DNA from: an uncultured bacterium
GTDB taxonomy: Bacteria; Verrucomicrobiota; Kiritimatiellia; PWTM01
Assembly (NCBI GenBank): GCA_900661335.1
Contig: CAACVY010000025.1
Coordinates: forward strand, 1-37,970
Direction: 5' to 3'
Length of the DNA: 37,970 bases
The notes below the pieces were generated by a model. That model ran no database searches. It was given only the letters and a program-made list of their open reading frames with translations, and had not been told where the DNA came from. How positions within the stretch are numbered: the stretch's first letter is position 1; every line of letters begins with the position of its first letter. Both the position numbers and the translations under genes were made by a program. This document shows, piece by piece, positions 3,088-15,022 of the stretch.

Positions 3088-4173
3088 TTAGTCGATCAGC
3101 GGGCTCGGCCGCCGAGCGAAGGGAAGCAGCTCCTCGAATGGACGAAGTCGGCGTGCATCCACGAGCGCGGCCATGGGGCGCAGCGAAAACGGGATGCCTG
3201 TTTCTCGCATGACGGCCATCACATTCAAGCCACCAAGCACGACCAAGCCGGCCCGGCCATCGGTGACTGGAATGTCTAACAGGGGGCGGCCCGGTTGCCC
3301 GACGGCGAGGACAGCGCGAATCGCATAAGTTTCCAAACGCCGCAGGATCACACGGAGCGTGTCGACCGAGGATGCCGGGACCTCTCGAAAACTGGCGCAC
3401 ACTGTTCCGCGACCGGTACGGAGGACATCCCGTGTTCGAGTTAGTCCCGCTTCAATGAACAGAGCTAGTGGGTCGCGAGTGGTGCCGCTGTACTCGATCA
3501 ATTCCAGAAACCGCGTGGGGCGGCCATGGACGATTTCGAGCAATCCACCATAGCGAGACGTGACGGGGATCCCGGCTTTCAGCAGAATCCCATTGAGCGT
3601 GATGCTACACATCGAGCCGAGGACGACGGTGTCTTCAGGTACCACATAGTCTTCGATGGATTCCTTTGGCCGCGCCAACAGGAAGCGGCCCGAGATCGAA
3701 AGGTCGGCTCGAGCGACTGGCGGAAGAAGTTCGACGGCGCGAGCTAGATCGCGCTCGGACAGTTCGGCCGTATTCACGATGACGGTGCCCTGGTGCTGGG
3801 TGGGATCGTAGCTCATCCGGTAGCTCAGTTCGTCGATCCGGCTCAAGACGAATCCCACCTTTTCGGGTAGTTCGATCGAGCGAAGCAATTCACGTCCGAG
3901 TTCCGTGAGCACGCGTCCTTGGCGGCGGTTCCAGAGCCGAGTCCACCCCGCCGAGTCCATCCGGCCCAGATGATAGCGGATAGCACGTGGGGTCAGATCG
4001 AAGCCATGTCGAAGAAGCTCCTCGGCGAGCTGGGCGGAGCCCACTGGGGCGTGGCTTTTTCCGATTGCGCGCAGCAAAATTTTTTCGACCAAAGAGGTCT
4101 TCAATCTTTCGTGGGACCGAGTTTTTGCAGCACTCCTGGCGAGCATTTCTGCGTTCTTCGTGTCCGTATGCAT
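3088..4173 (-). CDS. nrpR: NrpR-type transcriptional repressor of nitrogen assimilation
   Basis: 361 residues. Residues about 25-95 form a winged helix of the ribonuclease R-type/NrpR N-terminal family (LVEKILLRAIGKSHAPVG..., then 'LTPRAIRYHLGRMDSAGW'). Residues about 105-345 match one NrpR regulatory (DUF128) domain, with 'VPEDTVVLGSMCSITLNGILL', GIPVTSRYGGLLEI and a C-terminal 'VLGGLNVMAVMRETGIP' block. In methanogenic archaea NrpR senses 2-oxoglutarate and represses nitrogen assimilation genes; some archaeal forms carry two such domains, this one a single domain. The gene is divergent from gdhA with 137 bases between them, which fits control of glutamate dehydrogenase and of itself. The chosen ATG (4171-4173) lies inside a 14-bp palindrome and lacks a clear ribosome binding site. 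TAAATT about 6 bases upstream (complement of 4180-4185) would give a nearly leaderless transcript. A second in-frame ATG nine codons downstream is possible. Confidence 0.87.
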   Translation of the reverse strand: MHTDTKNAEMLARSAAKTRSHERLKTSLVEKILLRAIGKSHAPVGSAQLAEELLRHGFDLTPRAIRYHLGRMDSAGWTRLWNRRQGRVLTELGRELLRSIELPEKVGFVLSRIDELSYRMSYDPTQHQGTVIVNTAELSERDLARAVELLPPVARADLSISGRFLLARPKESIEDYVVPEDTVVLGSMCSITLNGILLKAGIPVTSRYGGLLEIVHGRPTRFLELIEYSGTTRDPLALFIEAGLTRTRDVLRTGRGTVCASFREVPASSVDTLRVILRRLETYAIRAVLAVGQPGRPLLDIPVTDGRAGLVVLGGLNVMAVMRETGIPFSLRPMAALVDARRLRPFEELLPFARRPSPLID

Positions 4174-4177
4174 ACGG
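4164..4177. promoter_or_regulatory. 14-bp perfect palindrome over the nrpR start codon (putative operator)
   Basis: CCGTATGCATACGG is its own reverse complement. It covers the nrpR start codon and, if TAAATT at 4180-4185 (minus strand) is the -10 box, the transcription start as well. That is a usual place for an autoregulatory operator. The bound protein is unknown; NrpR itself is the obvious candidate. Confidence 0.45.
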
Positions 4178-4298: not shown

Positions 4299-5651
<1,353 letters not shown>

Positions 5652-7429: not shown

Positions 7430-7882
7430 CATCGTCTGCGCGGACCGGCACGCAGGATCGCCCAAGAGGAGGTACTCCTAATAATAGAGAACCGCCCGCA
7501 AGTCACCCGGGGGGAGCCGATTGTGCGGCAGAGCCGGGACGGGCTCGAAGGCCGGAGGCAGAGGCAAGGGAGCGCGCGAGCAGGAAAGGCGCCCGGCCCA
7601 GTTTCGGCCGCTGGAGGGGCGCGTTCCACCGCGTCCCCCGCATTCGACCGCGTCCGGATCGGGTCGGGGTGGAACCCGACCCTCCATGCCGTTCCGATTT
7701 GCGGCGCAACGCCCTCTGGCGTCCAGATGCGGGTGGTCGAAGCAATGCATTGTTGGGGATCGGACGGATCGAGGGTGAGAAAATCGGCGGTTGTACCTGG
7801 AGCGTTGGGGTAAGCCCGTTTCGGAACGCAGGCCTTGCCCGCTGCTGAAGCCCTCATCCTGAACAGCACGATCGGCTCGGGC
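7430..7882. other. Non-coding stretch upstream of promoter copy A
   Basis: No credible gene. It contains the imperfect inverted repeat at 7613-7685 and a small AGGAG-GTA-CTCCT dyad near 7466-7478. The region is very GC-rich and open frames on both strands are low-complexity shadows. Confidence 0.5.
7613..7685. repeat. Imperfect inverted repeat, 18-bp arms
   Basis: The left arm (7613-7630, GGAGGGGCGCGTTCCACC) and the right arm (7668-7685) are inverted copies with two mismatches in 18, separated by 37 bases. It looks like an intergenic REP-type or palindromic element rather than a terminator, since no T-tract follows. Copy number in the genome is unknown. Confidence 0.6.
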
Positions 7883-7960
7883 TTGACACATGATGTTTCC
7901 GTGGTAGCATTAAAGGCAGTGATATGGTCCGCTTCGGGCGGACCGTCCTCGGTTGGATAC
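7881..7960 (+). promoter_or_regulatory. Promoter/leader unit, copy A
   Basis: A sigma-70-like promoter: TTGACA at 7883-7888, 16-base spacer, TAGCAT at 7905-7910. Fifteen bases later comes a 7-bp stem (GGTCCGC 7926-7932, loop TTCGG, GCGGACC 7938-7944) and then the box CGGTTGGATAC at 7950-7960. The arrangement is the same as in copy B, 175 bases downstream. No large gene follows copy A directly: a possible 29-codon frame begins with ATG at 8001, after GGGAGCAGGAG, and ends inside copy B. Copy A may be an orphaned duplicate or a second promoter of the PEP-CTERM gene. Confidence 0.7.
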
Positions 7961-8055
7961 GGAAATGAGTGCATGGTCGAACAGTCGAAGGGAGCAGGAG
8001 ATGAAGCAGGCAACTTGGCGGCTCGTGTGGGCTCGGGACCCAAGTTCTCAGGGGG

Positions 8056-8130
8056 GCTTGACACGCTCGATTTCGATGGTAGCATACTAGATAGCGGTTC
8101 GTTTTAGGCGAACCATCGTCGGTTGGAGAC
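8056..8130 (+). promoter_or_regulatory. Promoter/leader unit, copy B
   Basis: TTGACA at 8058-8063, 16-base spacer, TAGCAT at 8080-8085. Ten bases later a 7-bp stem (GGTTCGT 8096-8102, loop TTTAG, GCGAACC 8108-8114, one G-T pair), then CGGTTGGAGAC at 8120-8130. Compared with copy A one stem pair has changed from C-G to T-A on both sides, so pairing is kept. The hairpin would be at the very 5' end of the mRNA of the giant PEP-CTERM gene, about 205 bases before its start codon. Confidence 0.75.
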
Positions 8131-8335
8131 AAAAAGGATGAAAGAGCGAAAGCCCGCAAGGACGTTGAGTGGCGGAGGCAGTTTCGCCTCTGCGCTGGTT
8201 CCGAATCGGAGTACGGATGAGGGGTCTGGCCTTGAAGAAGTCGAGACGTATCATCAGGGCGGCCGGTCTGTTCGGAGCGCTGCGGTTGGCGAGCGACGAA
8301 TGAGGGCGAAAACAGTGACGAGTACGGAGGTCGAA

Positions 8336-11300
8336 ATGAAGACGAATGCTGAAATGAAGCATGTGAATTCGCGCATGGTTGCTGTTCTGTTTGCGGTGGC
8401 GACCGTAGTGGGGGCCGTCTCCGCGAGCGGTCAAGTCACTGGCATCTGGGCCACCACGTGGGGCGGCGAATGGAACGTCGCCGTGCGCTGGAGCAACAAC
8501 GTCATCCCCAACGCCGTGGGCGACTGGGCCTGGCTCACCGGCAACAATAACCTCGGCACTGGACTCGGTGGTACGCCGGTGTTCACCCAGAACGTGGATG
8601 TCACGCTGGGCTTTCTGATCTTCGGCGACACCGATCGCGGAACCCCCGCCGGCATCGATTCAATCGGCGTCAGTTCGACGTGGCTCACCTTCAACACTGG
8701 CGATGGACGCCGTGCGCTGCTCTCGCACGGTTCCGGCGACCTGCACATGCCCGGCGTGCCCGGTTGGCACTACAACATCGGGAATCCGGGTGACTGGATC
8801 AACGTCGGTATCCGCGTCGCGGACCCGGAGGGGCTGTACATCGACAATTTCTACGATCTGACTTTGCGCGGCGGCATCACCAATAGCCGCGTGTTGGATG
8901 CGCAGGGGCGTGACATTGTCAAAGCGGAAGGTGGAGCGTTGATAATTCAACGGGTGGTGACAAACCTTTCGACCCTCTACCTCCGCGATGGACGCATCCA
9001 CATCAATTTGGAGGGCAATGTGGGGGCTCATCCTCAATACGCCGTGCGGCCGGACATCACCAACATTGTCATCGGCGTCGCGCCGGGCGTGCGGGATTTG
9101 GGCGAATGGCACCCGATCCAGACCCAGACGAACGTCGGAGAGAACACCGCGCTCAACCGAATCCAGTTTCCATATTTTCAAATCACCGGCGACAACAACA
9201 CCAACGCGGCGGGGGTCTATGTCCATCCCTACAACGTCACGCTCAACCGCGGCGCATTCCGGACATTTTCCCGCGCTCTGGAAACGGTTACCTTGCGGCC
9301 CAACTGGACCAATCACCAGGCGCGGTTCACCGGTACGTGGACGCTCAATGGCAGCCCATACGAAGTTCTGATCTGGAACGAGGCGCAGGATTCGGGCAGT
9401 CTGACCAGCAACGTGCGTCAGCACGTCTGGTCGGGCACACTGACCGGCCCGGGCGGCTTCACGAAGCTTGGCTCTTCCGAGATGACTCTGCTAGGGACCA
9501 ACGACTTTCCGGGTCCGATCTTCGTGATTCGTGAGTTCGACCGTGGCCGCGGCCGCTACGGAGCCATCGCTTTGCGTGAAGGTGGTATTCTGACCGATGC
9601 GGAGGGCATCAAGTTCCTGAGGGCTGGAAGTCTTTATCTCGACAACAGTTTTGTGAACATTAACAACCGGCTGCCGGACGACTTCTGGATCGTCAACCGG
9701 CAGTGGGGACGATTCGAAATCCTGGGCAACGCGGCAGTACCGACCACCGAAACGATTGGTTCAGTGACCAATCTCGGCGGCACGCTGCACCTGGTGTTCG
9801 ACCTGAACGATGCCGCCAACCAGGCGATGACGCTGAACTTGGACCGGCTGGTCCGAGCACCGGGTTCAATCGTTCAGTTGCATGTGAAAGACGTCCGCGA
9901 AGGCGCATTGTCCACCAACGCGGGTCCGGCGGTGACGGTGAACCTTGCCGACGGCGGGGCTTCATTAACGCAGCTCGGCGGCGACGGATCGCTCGGCTAC
10001 AACCGCAAGGTCGTCGTGGGCGTCTTCGGGGGAGATGCGTCCGACATCGCCTACCATACGAACCCTACTGTCAACGATCCGGTCGGTTTTAACCCCACTC
10101 GAGCCGATCAGTTCATGACGGTGGAAAGTGGGCGGCTTCGCACGTTGCGGGACGACGAGATGGTTCACTTGGGCGGGCGTGCGACCAACTTCCTGACGAT
10201 TAGCCAGGCCGACGCGCCGACTGACGCGAACGTGAATATCGCGTTCCGCGCGACGCAGGTCCGGCTCGATCGGGCCACCGACGGTCCCATGGGTTCGCTG
10301 AACCTGATCAAGAACCGGATCGTGGGCGACGTCACATGGAACTCTCTGCGCACCGGTATCGCGACCAACCAGGGCGGAGCGACTTGGGCGGGTGGGTCGA
10401 TCCTTTTGGATCACGGCCGGCGGCTGACGTTGGAATCCGGCATGTTGCTGGCCGGCCGCGATACCCGCAGCTCCAACGGCGACGACTCGGCAGGCGCGGA
10501 TGTATTGTTCTGGCGAGGGACGATTGACCTCGATGGTACCGCCAACGACCGTGAGGCGATTGTCCAGGTGGCCAACGGCCACGCTCTTTACATCGGCAGT
10601 ACCATCGAGGCGCGTAACGGCCTGACCAAAGGCGGGGAGAATACGTTAGTGCTATTCAACGCCAACGCGATCAGCGGCACGGTGTATGTTGCTAGGGGCC
10701 TATTGCAACTTCGGAATCCGGCGGCGCTTGGCGGCGCTACGCAACTCGTGCTCTCAGCCGATGCCGTGGTGGGATTGCAATTCGGCGGCTCGTACAATCC
10801 TGCGGACCTTGTCGTCGAAGCTGTGCCGTGGGGGGCGTGGCCGTTCAGAAGCTATTTTCAACACAACCAGTGGAATGGACGCCTGATTATCAGGAACGTG
10901 GACGAAGTCGGCGTCGTGCATCACGACATTTCCGTGGTCGCCGGCCACAACAGCCAGAACGCGACCCTGACCTTGGCCGGCGACATCGCCGCGGAGGGGG
11001 CGACAGCGAATGCGGATGTTGTGTTGTTCGATTCCATACGGCTGACCACCGGGACGTCGGGTGGGATCATCAACATGAAAGGGCTCGTTGGTGACCGGTT
11101 CGTGGGTGGGGTCGCCATGCCGCTGGACGCGCCGGGGGCTACGTTCAACCGGTTCGGTGGGGGCGATATCACCAATCGGACTTCGTACGAGAATCAGGCG
11201 CTGCGATTCCGAATTGATGGTCCGGCGCTAGGCTCGTGGGGGGATGAGTTGGCCGTCCATATCTATCGGCCATGGCGCGCCGTCGGTCGGATTTCCGCCG

Positions 11301-14300
11301 AGCAAGGTACGATCCGGTTCCTCGGCGATCCCGCTGCGGGTGAGGGCGAGTTTTGGTGGGCGCCTGCGCTGACCAACTCGGACTTCGCCAACGGCATTAG
11401 TGGTTTCCAGCTTGGCGGCCCGGGCACGGACGCCGGCGGCAGTGCCACGTTCCTGCTCACCCGTCATGGGCAGGTCTTCAACGCGGAGCGTTGGACCGTC
11501 GCAACGGACGTTACCAACAACACGCTGACCATCGGTTTGGAACATTTTGGTCCCCAGAACGCGACGGTGACTATTGGGAACACATACAATGACGAAAGCC
11601 CGGACGGGGCCGACAACCGGATCACCTTTGACCGGCCGTTCAGGGTGCTCGCCCAAAACGGATACGATTCCTCGGCAGGTACGGCCAGCGTCGGACGAGT
11701 CAATATCGTCCAAACACTCAGGGGCAACGCGGCATCGCGGCTGGTCAAGGTCGGCTCGGGCCAAGTGTGGTTGCAGGGACCGGATAATGCCAGCTATTCG
11801 GAAGCCAATAGCGTTTTCGGGTTCGTGCTGCTCGGCGGCGAGCTGGTGTTGGACCGAAGCCCAGGGTCTTCTGCGAGTCTGAGCCAGCGGCGCACCCGAG
11901 ACGATGGGGCTCAGCTCGTCCTGGCGGGTGGCGATCTGACATTCTACGGCTCGGCGAATGGGAGCTTTGCCACCGAACTGTTGAACAGCAACCTGTTGGT
12001 CATGGCTGGAGATTCGATTCTGCGGGCGCGGCCGGCCGGACCGACACAATCGAACCTGCTTCATGTCGCTAACTTCACTGGCGCGACGGTCACCCGCCAA
12101 GTGGGGGGCACGGTGCATTTCAATCTGGATGTGTCCGCTGGTGGCGGAGCGGGAATTTTATTTGGTCAGACGGTCAGTGCTCGTGTTGGCTCTTGGGCCG
12201 TATTCAGCAGCAACGATTTCCAAAACTTGAGCTGGGCTGCGACGGATGCCAACAAGTACATCACTCCATTCACGGGCTACGCGGTAGACACCTACGGGTC
12301 GGCGTCGTATCATACTGAAGTCCGGGATGGGAACCCGTCACTCTTGCCTGACGACGTGACTGGCTCGCTTCGGTTCGACACGAACCTGTTCCAAAACCTC
12401 GACCTCGGCGGCAGCGTGTTGAACATTGCCGACCGTGGGATTCTCGTCACTCGGGGTTCGTCCGATGGATGGGGCGGGCCACAGGGAATCGTTAACGGTG
12501 TGCTGACCAGTTCCGTCGGCGAACTAATCATCCACAATTATTCGCCGTACGGCTTCAACATTGCGGCAGCAATCAACGGGAACGTCGAGCTGACGCATTC
12601 GGGCATTTCGACCACGTGGCTGAGCTCGGCCAACGGGTTTACCGGCCGAGTGTTCCTGAACGGAGGTGTGCTGCCGGTTTCATCGCTGTCCCAGCTGGGC
12701 GCGGCCACAGCCGCTGGCACCAACACGCTGGGCTTGCGCGGTGGGGTGCTCCGGGTCACCAGCGATTTGAACTTCACGACCAACACCATCGAGCTGGGCG
12801 GCGACGGCGGAACCATCTGGGTGGACGCCAACCGAGCTGCGCGGTTCGAAGGCATCATCCGCTCGGAGACCAACATTTTCAGCACCAGCGCCGTGCTCAA
12901 AAACAATGGCCACGGCGACCTGATCAAAACCGGCCCCGGCGCGCTGGTCATCGGCGGTCATTCGAACGTGATCAACGCGATCCACGGGTTGATTGACATT
13001 CGCCAGGGATCGCTGGTGATTGACCGCGCAGCGATCTCCAATGACGTCCTCTTCGGGTTGAGTCACTCCTATTACGACGGCATCGTGATCCGCAGCGGCG
13101 CCTCGCTCGTGATCAGCAACATGCAGACGCGTGACACGGGGGGCGCCCTCCAAACCCCCACCGATATCCGCGACTGGTTGACCCTGGAGCAGGGATCGCG
13201 CGTCGAGGTGTGGGACCGAGATACAACGACTTACCAAGTGTGGAGATGGAACGCACCGGTCAATTTGCTTGGCGATGCGACGTTTTTCGTTGACCGGGAG
13301 GAGTTCGTGTTGAACGCAGACGCTGGCTATCTTGAAGGTCCGGGAAGTTTGGTCAAAGAGGGCAATGGCCGAATGGGCGTTCGCGACTTTAGTCCGGACT
13401 TTACCGGCGCAATTCGAGTGCAGGATGGCATCTTCGACATTTACACGCGCCATGTAAACCTGGTGCCCAACGCGTCGGAGTTCGTGATCGGGTTCCCGGC
13501 CAACACCAACCGAGGGGCGGTGGTGCTGTACGTCCGGCCAGAAGCCGACCAGGGCGCCTCGGAAACCGTCGTCGCGCAGAAAATTCGGGTGGTGGGTGAG
13601 TCGGATGACACCCGTCTGGGCGTATTCCGGACACATCACGGCGACGTCGTTCGGTTCACAGGCGATCTGGATCTGACTGGCTTCGACCAGTACGGTAACT
13701 TGCGCGAGCTTCGCTTGCACCGCGCGGACGACAACTTTGTGTTTTCGTCCTACGAAAGCGGCGATACGTTCGATCGGCGAGCGTTCGTTTGGCTCGAAGG
13801 CAGTATCATTGGCGCTAATAAACGGATCAGGTTGAGCACGGAGCAGAGCTATTCGCCGAATATGCCGAACACCCAGAACAACCCGACCAACAACAACCTG
13901 ATCACCATTTGGACGTTCACGGGGACCAACACCACCTGGACCGGCACGCTGGAGATTGGTAATCGCCAGAGCACGGACGTGGCTTGGGGTGGCCCGGACT
14001 ACAACAAGCAGCCAGTGGCCCGCTTCGGCCGGGACGACGGCCAGCCCACGCTGGCGATCTCGTCGAACGTCGTTGTGGTGCTACGGCATGACGCCCGCTT
14101 GCAGGCGTTCGGTAGCGAGGTGACGATCGGCACGCTGTTCACCGACGGTAAAGCTGATAACGTCACCATTGATTACTTCGGAAGTGACCTGACGACCAAC
14201 TCGTTCATCGAGAACGCCGGCACGCAGCCGGGCAGCTTCCGCATTGTGCAGCACACCAACGCGATCATCTCCGCGACGATCCGTGACGGTGTGGTGTGGT

Positions 14301-15022
14301 CGCCAGTCTTTGCGGATCAGCCAGCGGCGCCATTGAGCATTCTGAAGGATGGTCCTGCGACCATGACCCTGTTGGCCAGCAACAGCTTCAGCGGCATGGC
14401 TCGCGTGATGGCGGGCACGCTGGCGCTCTCGGGCACCGGCTCGATCCGAAATGCGCATACGATCCAGATTGACGCGGGGGCGACGCTGAATGTGACGCCG
14501 CGGTCGGACAGCACCTTGTGGCTAGCGCCGGGGCAGACCTTGCAGGGTCACGGCACATTGCAAGGCGGCCTGATCGCTGAGAGCGGGTCCTTCGTGAAGC
14601 CGGGTACGAGTCCGGGTGTGTTGACCGTGGTCGGAGATGTCACATTCAATTCTGGTAGCACGTTCGAGGTCGAAATCCTCGGGCCGCTCTCGGGCCAGTA
14701 CGACCAACTGCTGATGAACTCCCTCTACGAATTGACTCTAAGCGGGGCGACGCTGTCCGTGCTGGCGCCGAACCCGCTGACCGTGGGGACGGTCTTCCCG
14801 ATCATTAGCGGTTGGGGTTCGATTGATAGCTCTACGTTCTCGGGTCTGCCGGACGGCGCAAGCTTTACCGCTGGTGCGAACCAGTTCCAAATCAACTATG
14901 GAACGCTGCCCGGCTACGCGGACGACGTGACATTGACCGTAGTGCCGGAACCCGGAACGCTTGCGACAATGGCTTTGGCGCTGGCCGTCGGTGCGGTCTT
15001 GCGGCGCCGTCTGCGGCGATAA
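8336..15022 (+). CDS. Giant PEP-CTERM protein with autotransporter-type beta-strand repeats
   Basis: 2228 residues from the ATG at 8336, which has GGAGG five bases upstream and is followed by a good signal peptide (hydrophobic run MVAVLFAVATVVGAVSA, about residues 14-30, then SGQ). The body is a long right-handed beta-helix-like array: passenger repeats of the type 'LVKVGSGQVWLQGPDNASY', LIKTGPGALVIGGHS and ILKDGPATMTLLASNSFSG recur, as in autotransporter-associated beta-strand repeat proteins. It is rich in Gly, Asn and Thr. The C-terminus is a PEP-CTERM signal: VPEPGTLA, a hydrophobic segment, then RRRLRR, which marks it for cleavage by an exosortase and delivery to the surface or an extracellular matrix. 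No exosortase gene is in the window. The frame stays open upstream to 8123, so a longer form from 8138 cannot be excluded, but that would bury the signal peptide. Transcription probably starts at copy B (and perhaps A). A hairpin terminator follows at 15056. Confidence 0.93.
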   Translation: MKTNAEMKHVNSRMVAVLFAVATVVGAVSASGQVTGIWATTWGGEWNVAVRWSNNVIPNAVGDWAWLTGNNNLGTGLGGTPVFTQNVDVTLGFLIFGDTDRGTPAGIDSIGVSSTWLTFNTGDGRRALLSHGSGDLHMPGVPGWHYNIGNPGDWINVGIRVADPEGLYIDNFYDLTLRGGITNSRVLDAQGRDIVKAEGGALIIQRVVTNLSTLYLRDGRIHINLEGNVGAHPQYAVRPDITNIVIGVAPGVRDLGEWHPIQTQTNVGENTALNRIQFPYFQITGDNNTNAAGVYVHPYNVTLNRGAFRTFSRALETVTLRPNWTNHQARFTGTWTLNGSPYEVLIWNEAQDSGSLTSNVRQHVWSGTLTGPGGFTKLGSSEMTLLGTNDFPGPIFVIREFDRGRGRYGAIALREGGILTDAEGIKFLRAGSLYLDNSFVNINNRLPDDFWIVNRQWGRFEILGNAAVPTTETIGSVTNLGGTLHLVFDLNDAANQAMTLNLDRLVRAPGSIVQLHVKDVREGALSTNAGPAVTVNLADGGASLTQLGGDGSLGYNRKVVVGVFGGDASDIAYHTNPTVNDPVGFNPTRADQFMTVESGRLRTLRDDEMVHLGGRATNFLTISQADAPTDANVNIAFRATQVRLDRATDGPMGSLNLIKNRIVGDVTWNSLRTGIATNQGGATWAGGSILLDHGRRLTLESGMLLAGRDTRSSNGDDSAGADVLFWRGTIDLDGTANDREAIVQVANGHALYIGSTIEARNGLTKGGENTLVLFNANAISGTVYVARGLLQLRNPAALGGATQLVLSADAVVGLQFGGSYNPADLVVEAVPWGAWPFRSYFQHNQWNGRLIIRNVDEVGVVHHDISVVAGHNSQNATLTLAGDIAAEGATANADVVLFDSIRLTTGTSGGIINMKGLVGDRFVGGVAMPLDAPGATFNRFGGGDITNRTSYENQALRFRIDGPALGSWGDELAVHIYRPWRAVGRISAEQGTIRFLGDPAAGEGEFWWAPALTNSDFANGISGFQLGGPGTDAGGSATFLLTRHGQVFNAERWTVATDVTNNTLTIGLEHFGPQNATVTIGNTYNDESPDGADNRITFDRPFRVLAQNGYDSSAGTASVGRVNIVQTLRGNAASRLVKVGSGQVWLQGPDNASYSEANSVFGFVLLGGELVLDRSPGSSASLSQRRTRDDGAQLVLAGGDLTFYGSANGSFATELLNSNLLVMAGDSILRARPAGPTQSNLLHVANFTGATVTRQVGGTVHFNLDVSAGGGAGILFGQTVSARVGSWAVFSSNDFQNLSWAATDANKYITPFTGYAVDTYGSASYHTEVRDGNPSLLPDDVTGSLRFDTNLFQNLDLGGSVLNIADRGILVTRGSSDGWGGPQGIVNGVLTSSVGELIIHNYSPYGFNIAAAINGNVELTHSGISTTWLSSANGFTGRVFLNGGVLPVSSLSQLGAATAAGTNTLGLRGGVLRVTSDLNFTTNTIELGGDGGTIWVDANRAARFEGIIRSETNIFSTSAVLKNNGHGDLIKTGPGALVIGGHSNVINAIHGLIDIRQGSLVIDRAAISNDVLFGLSHSYYDGIVIRSGASLVISNMQTRDTGGALQTPTDIRDWLTLEQGSRVEVWDRDTTTYQVWRWNAPVNLLGDATFFVDREEFVLNADAGYLEGPGSLVKEGNGRMGVRDFSPDFTGAIRVQDGIFDIYTRHVNLVPNASEFVIGFPANTNRGAVVLYVRPEADQGASETVVAQKIRVVGESDDTRLGVFRTHHGDVVRFTGDLDLTGFDQYGNLRELRLHRADDNFVFSSYESGDTFDRRAFVWLEGSIIGANKRIRLSTEQSYSPNMPNTQNNPTNNNLITIWTFTGTNTTWTGTLEIGNRQSTDVAWGGPDYNKQPVARFGRDDGQPTLAISSNVVVVLRHDARLQAFGSEVTIGTLFTDGKADNVTIDYFGSDLTTNSFIENAGTQPGSFRIVQHTNAIISATIRDGVVWSPVFADQPAAPLSILKDGPATMTLLASNSFSGMARVMAGTLALSGTGSIRNAHTIQIDAGATLNVTPRSDSTLWLAPGQTLQGHGTLQGGLIAESGSFVKPGTSPGVLTVVGDVTFNSGSTFEVEILGPLSGQYDQLLMNSLYELTLSGATLSVLAPNPLTVGTVFPIISGWGSIDSSTFSGLPDGASFTAGANQFQINYGTLPGYADDVTLTVVPEPGTLATMALALAVGAVLRRRLRR

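Follow-up and report, generated by a model that had tools for sequence, protein, structure and literature searches.

A duplicated promoter and putative 5' hairpin leader ahead of the gene for a giant PEP-CTERM surface protein of an uncultured Lentisphaerae-like bacterium

The window, the whole stretch of 37,970 nucleotides analysed here, carries two homologous copies of a module composed of the promoter TTGACA-N16-TAGCAT, a 7-bp hairpin and the box TCGGTTGGA, both located upstream of a gene encoding a 2,228-residue PATR/PEP-CTERM protein. The promoters match the sigma-70 type, the hairpins are outliers within their own genome, the same layout precedes two orthologues of the gene, and the arrangement was found before no other gene in the genomes searched. 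Taken together, these observations are best explained, with a probability of about one half, by an old event that duplicated the promoter and leader of a single gene in tandem, and in each copy a 5'-terminal hairpin would stabilise the mRNA of the giant gene, by analogy with ompA.

All elements of the two modules lie on the forward strand. Promoter A occupies positions 7883-7910 (TTGACA at 7883-7888, a 16-nt spacer and TAGCAT at 7905-7910), agrees with the consensus at 10 of 12 positions and has a TG ahead of the -10 hexamer. Hairpin A follows at 7926-7944 (GGTCCGC-TTCGG-GCGGACC), with a stem lengthened outward by A-U and U-G pairs, and the sequence CGGTTGGA at 7950-7957 forms a probable ribosome-binding-site region, behind which a frame of 41 codons starts with the ATG at 7965 and ends at promoter B. 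Promoter B, located 175 bp downstream of promoter A at 8058-8085, repeats both hexamers (8058-8063 and 8080-8085) and the 16-nt spacer, while hairpin B (8096-8114; GGTTCGT-TTTAG-GCGAACC) lies 170 bp from its counterpart and is succeeded by CGGTTGGA at 8120-8127, then GAC and an in-frame ATG at 8138. Both hairpins have a 5-nt loop, the two promoters are the top sigma-70-type sites of the region, and the window contains CGGTTGGANAC at exactly two places. The twofold occurrence of promoter, 7-bp hairpin and box, with the promoters 175 bp apart, had been described in an earlier sequence-only reading of this DNA and is present as described.

The surface-protein gene is assigned to positions 8336-15022 (forward strand), with GGAGG at 8326-8330, a signal peptide and a C-terminal VPEPG...RRR signature; public records matched by its protein belong to uncultured-bacterium and Lentisphaerae MAGs. 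Its open frame extends back to 8123/8138, and the start that agrees with the orthologues and has the GGAGG Shine-Dalgarno sequence is 8336, approximately 220 nt downstream of hairpin B, unlike the situation in the orthologues. An N-terminal extension from the ATG at 8138 would be uninterrupted in frame, yet its codon composition differs from that of the gene: the G+C content by codon position is 0.62/0.58/0.59 in 8138-8335 compared with 0.59/0.47/0.76 in the gene, and the stretch is therefore probably non-coding.

Homology between the two copies is supported by a Smith-Waterman score of 38, compared with a mean of 14.5 and a maximum of 27 among 2,000 dinucleotide-shuffled pairs. The similarity is restricted to copy A, which begins with GGGCTTGACAC at 7879 and fades at about 7968, and copy B, which spans 8054 to roughly 8138; the DNA between the copies and past copy B is unrelated. 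Since the similarity stops at the module edges, it is the modules that have been kept and not the whole 175-bp unit, and within them TCGGTTGGA has been retained as well as the -35 and -10 hexamers while the flanks have diverged. Between A and B the stem shows one compensated pair (C-G to T-A) and one change of C-G to U-G. With two changed sites in the 5' arm, the single change in the 3' arm would fit a partner with a probability of 2/7 x 1/3, or about 0.1 by our own estimate; the two copies alone thus provide no proof of selection on RNA, and the sequence-only reading, which took the paired changes to demonstrate it, overstated what two copies can carry.

To place the hairpins against a genomic background, stretches totalling approximately 1.25 Mb of the own genome, whose assembly is 68% complete, were scanned for TTGAC-N16-18-TAnnnT, and the matches were ranked by the best stem beginning 3-18 nt behind the -10 box. 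Among the 45 promoter-like matches, many of which precede genes, hairpins A and B rank first and second (scores of 23 and 17, the next being 15.5). A terminator reading of the stems was ruled out, as a T run behind them is absent. No Rfam family matches the window above its gathering score, and when E-values as high as 1 were admitted, the sole match was to a CRISPR repeat, at 18.6 bits against a cut-off of 35, and was attributed to chance.

The leaders of orthologous genes provide further evidence for the stem. Three congeneric genomes contain an orthologue of the giant gene, as does one other genome from the same family. In the sister species G001, whose protein is 73% identical, the leader consists of TTGACA-N16-TAGGAT, 11 nt, GGTTCGC-N8-GCGAACC, and then GGGTGGAGAGCGTCCG and ATG; its arms are those of hairpin B, one U-G pair in B aside, while loop, spacer and flanks differ. 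Because GGTYCG-N3-12-CGRACC occurs 18 times in the 1.25 Mb of the own genome, the chance of meeting it in the G001 leader slot is about 2e-4, and this recurrence of the same stem at the same offset lends support to the stem. In a second sister species, G002, where the gene is split over two contigs with an exact 141-bp overlap and is hence the same gene, a 6-bp stem with unrelated letters, TGTGGG-N6-CCCACA, occupies the equivalent position. The dinucleotide-shuffle p-values, based on a small number of sequences, are 0.004 for A, 0.021 for B, 0.023 for G001, 0.036 for G002 and 0.38 for the weak hairpin of G003, and in G006 no clear leader hairpin was found. The earlier suggestion of a hairpin at the start of the predicted message, as more than a fortuitous pairing, is supported by the G001 stem in its slot and by the different stem of G002. 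As a separate observation, the G003 orthologue (L045 on contig C72) is interrupted early by a stop codon and continues in other frames, which may reflect a pseudogene or assembly errors.

A promoter, a 5' hairpin, GGA(G) and ATG follow one another in A, B, G001 and G002, in which the stems begin 15, 10, 11 and 6 nt behind the -10 box, respectively (the 5' ends themselves being predicted only), enclose loops of 5, 5, 8 and 6 nt and end 16-23 nt before ATG. The differing loop lengths, together with the differing letters among A, B and G002, fit a structural constraint and not one on the letters, although the agreement of B and G001 in their stem letters could mean that the letters themselves matter. 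The shared layout also bears on CGGTTGGA, whose place in the orthologues is taken by GGGTGGAGA and CGGGAG immediately ahead of the start codon. We infer that CGGTTGGA represents the ribosome-binding region of an ancestral leader and no separate box, and its interpretation as a ligand- or protein-binding site is not upheld.

It had also been proposed that the element might be a leader common to a family of PEP-CTERM genes. A covariance model built from copies A and B only recovered no third copy in the 68%-complete own genome, and its sole match in 57 other genomes (L021) proved on reading to have no leader of this kind. As the model gives no score to the G001 leader, which differs in loop and spacing, the absence of matches is weak evidence, and a pattern search (TTGAC, 30-45 nt, GGTYCG stem) of nine family genomes was therefore added. 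It returned seven matches. When these were read, a -10 box was present only in A, in B and before the G001 orthologue, and thus promoter and stem in this combination precede no other gene in these nine genomes. The detected promoters of other PEP-CTERM genes in four congeneric genomes likewise lack such a leader; they are of the sigma-70 type (TTGACA and TAnnnT) with mostly short leaders. Several further candidates were discarded: L003, L004, L017 and L018 are promoter-only matches without hairpin and box, and a 79% match to the hairpin A region (C10:28748, E 0.004) falls within a stretch that codes for the residues GKGNDQVRFE, which resemble argininosuccinate synthase, and was taken as coincidence. 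The sequence-only reading had itself named a lack of additional genomic copies as grounds for rejection, and by that rule the idea of a family element fails, while the orthologues rescue the stem; the leader is most likely specific to the giant gene. Cobalamin riboswitches (68-71 bits against a cut-off of 31.5) precede PEP-CTERM genes in G001 (L087, C17), G002 (L102, C3) and G003 (L106, C91), and in G000, TTCCGTCAGAATCGAA is tandemly repeated behind another PEP-CTERM promoter (L074/L046, C105), possibly a second leader duplication.

Directly upstream of copy A, a dispersed repeat occupies positions 7514-7878 and ends where promoter A begins. Members of this repeat measure approximately 365-560 bp and have 13-bp terminal inverted repeats GAGCCGATTGTGC / GCACGATCGGCTC, also given as GAGCCGATTGYGC / GCRCRATCGGCTC; the palindrome GGGTCGGGGTGGAACCCGACCC in their interior is REP-like. 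Other copies in G000 are located at C14:18546-18895, C107:2453-2723, C22:47086-47336, C59:16782-17037, C120:2300-2491 and C5:3573-3791. All seven genome copies share one orientation, towards a gene, and six end about 100 bp or less from a gene start, the seventh ending at promoter A. The repeat looks like a non-autonomous, lineage-specific mobile element that inserts beside promoters, or else a promoter-linked element. The leader does not require this repeat, given that copy B and the orthologues do without it. Elsewhere in the window, an NrpR-type nitrogen regulator gene (3088-4173, reverse strand) is divergent from a glutamate dehydrogenase gene (4311-5651, forward strand), with the perfect 14-bp palindrome CCGTATGCATACGG at 4164-4177 between them as a candidate operator.

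The abutting repeat lends some weight to the view that the region is a by-product of rearrangement, in which a promoter was duplicated, the hairpins are incidental and only one promoter is functional. The single hairpins reach p-values of just 0.004-0.04, one pair alone is compensated and G003 lacks a good hairpin; against this, promoter, stem and box persist in both copies while spacers and flanks have diverged past recognition, and the stem is found again before the G001 orthologue, which makes such an origin unlikely. Slightly less probable still is that the inverted repeat acts as DNA, each promoter being paired with its own operator at about +5 to +25, to which a dimeric repressor or activator would bind. 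Perfect inverted repeats just past a start site are typical of operators, and the GGTTCG/CGAACC letters agree between copy B and the G001 orthologue. However, the fixed half-site letters and spacing expected of a dimeric regulator's site are not seen: the distance from GGTYCG to CGRACC is 7 in A, 7 in B and 10 in G001, and the letters differ between A and B within one cell and entirely in G002. Moreover, no more copies stand before other genes in the own-genome model search or the nine-genome pattern search, and the palindrome between the window's nrpR-like gene and the glutamate dehydrogenase gene differs from the repeat, which speaks against an NrpR operator.

Two further possibilities place the function in the RNA. 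A regulatory RNA, whose stem and CGGTTGGA would bind a protein, a small RNA or a ligand and control translation or stability of this gene, could account for the retention of TCGGTTGGA between A and B to the same degree as the promoter hexamers despite diverged flanks; in G001 and G002, however, the box is conserved no further than GGA(G), the hairpin is too small for a ligand pocket, and no instance was found by Rfam or, elsewhere, by the model or pattern searches, so that this explanation appears improbable. Even more doubtful is a new gene-specific leader whose GGTYCG stem, in RNA from both starts, would be recognised by a sequence-specific factor that switches the giant exosortase-sorted surface protein on or off.

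According to the preferred explanation, that of a stabilising hairpin, the unit was duplicated in this lineage, and each copy would comprise a sigma-70-type promoter from which an RNA begins a few nucleotides before the 7-bp hairpin, with a ribosome-binding-site region next in line. The hairpin would guard the mRNA of approximately 7 kb against 5'-end-dependent decay of the RNA pyrophosphohydrolase/RNase E type, such that the long surface-protein message survives long enough for translation, and the second promoter copy would increase or diversify message synthesis. That both promoters are transcribed, that the hairpins stabilise and that two copies are of benefit is what we infer from the arrangement. 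Several observations weigh against this explanation: from its predicted start, transcript A would have about 6-9 unpaired nt ahead of the stem, which is above the ideal for 5'-end protection; the gene start is some 220 nt from hairpin B; G003 has a weak hairpin and G006 no clear one; and the stem letters of B and G001 agree. Five genomes were tested for decay enzymes: all gave RNase E/G matches over the cut-off, and four did so for RNase Y, the incomplete own genome giving a sub-threshold match.

Stabilisation of mRNA by structured 5' ends is established in Escherichia coli and Bacillus subtilis, with stem-loops of this kind known from E. coli ompA and papA, B. subtilis aprE, Helicobacter pylori vacA and Acinetobacter baumannii recA (PMC3997798; PMC7509114). 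The hairpins described here resemble the ompA type in being small, close to the predicted 5' end, upstream of a probable ribosome-binding region and on an abundant or surface-protein message; they differ in that the promoter-leader unit is duplicated, the gene start lies ~220 nt away, the host belongs to an uncultured Lentisphaerae-like lineage, and stabilisation is proposed by analogy. Surface-layer genes such as Lactobacillus slpA have tandem-promoter leaders, and slpA likewise combines two promoters and a structured leader with a large surface-protein gene, whereas here each promoter has its own hairpin. Among PEP-CTERM genes, pepA of Aquincola tertiaricarbonis is under RpoN-dependent control (PMC9850573), in contrast to the sigma-70-type promoters of the present control region.

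The twin leaders reveal no new regulatory family. If the proposed mechanism is true, the range of message stabilisation by 5' hairpins would come to include a giant, autotransporter-like surface gene of a Lentisphaerae-related lineage that is uncultured, and the two diverged copies together with the two orthologues of one leader would constitute a compact natural test of it.
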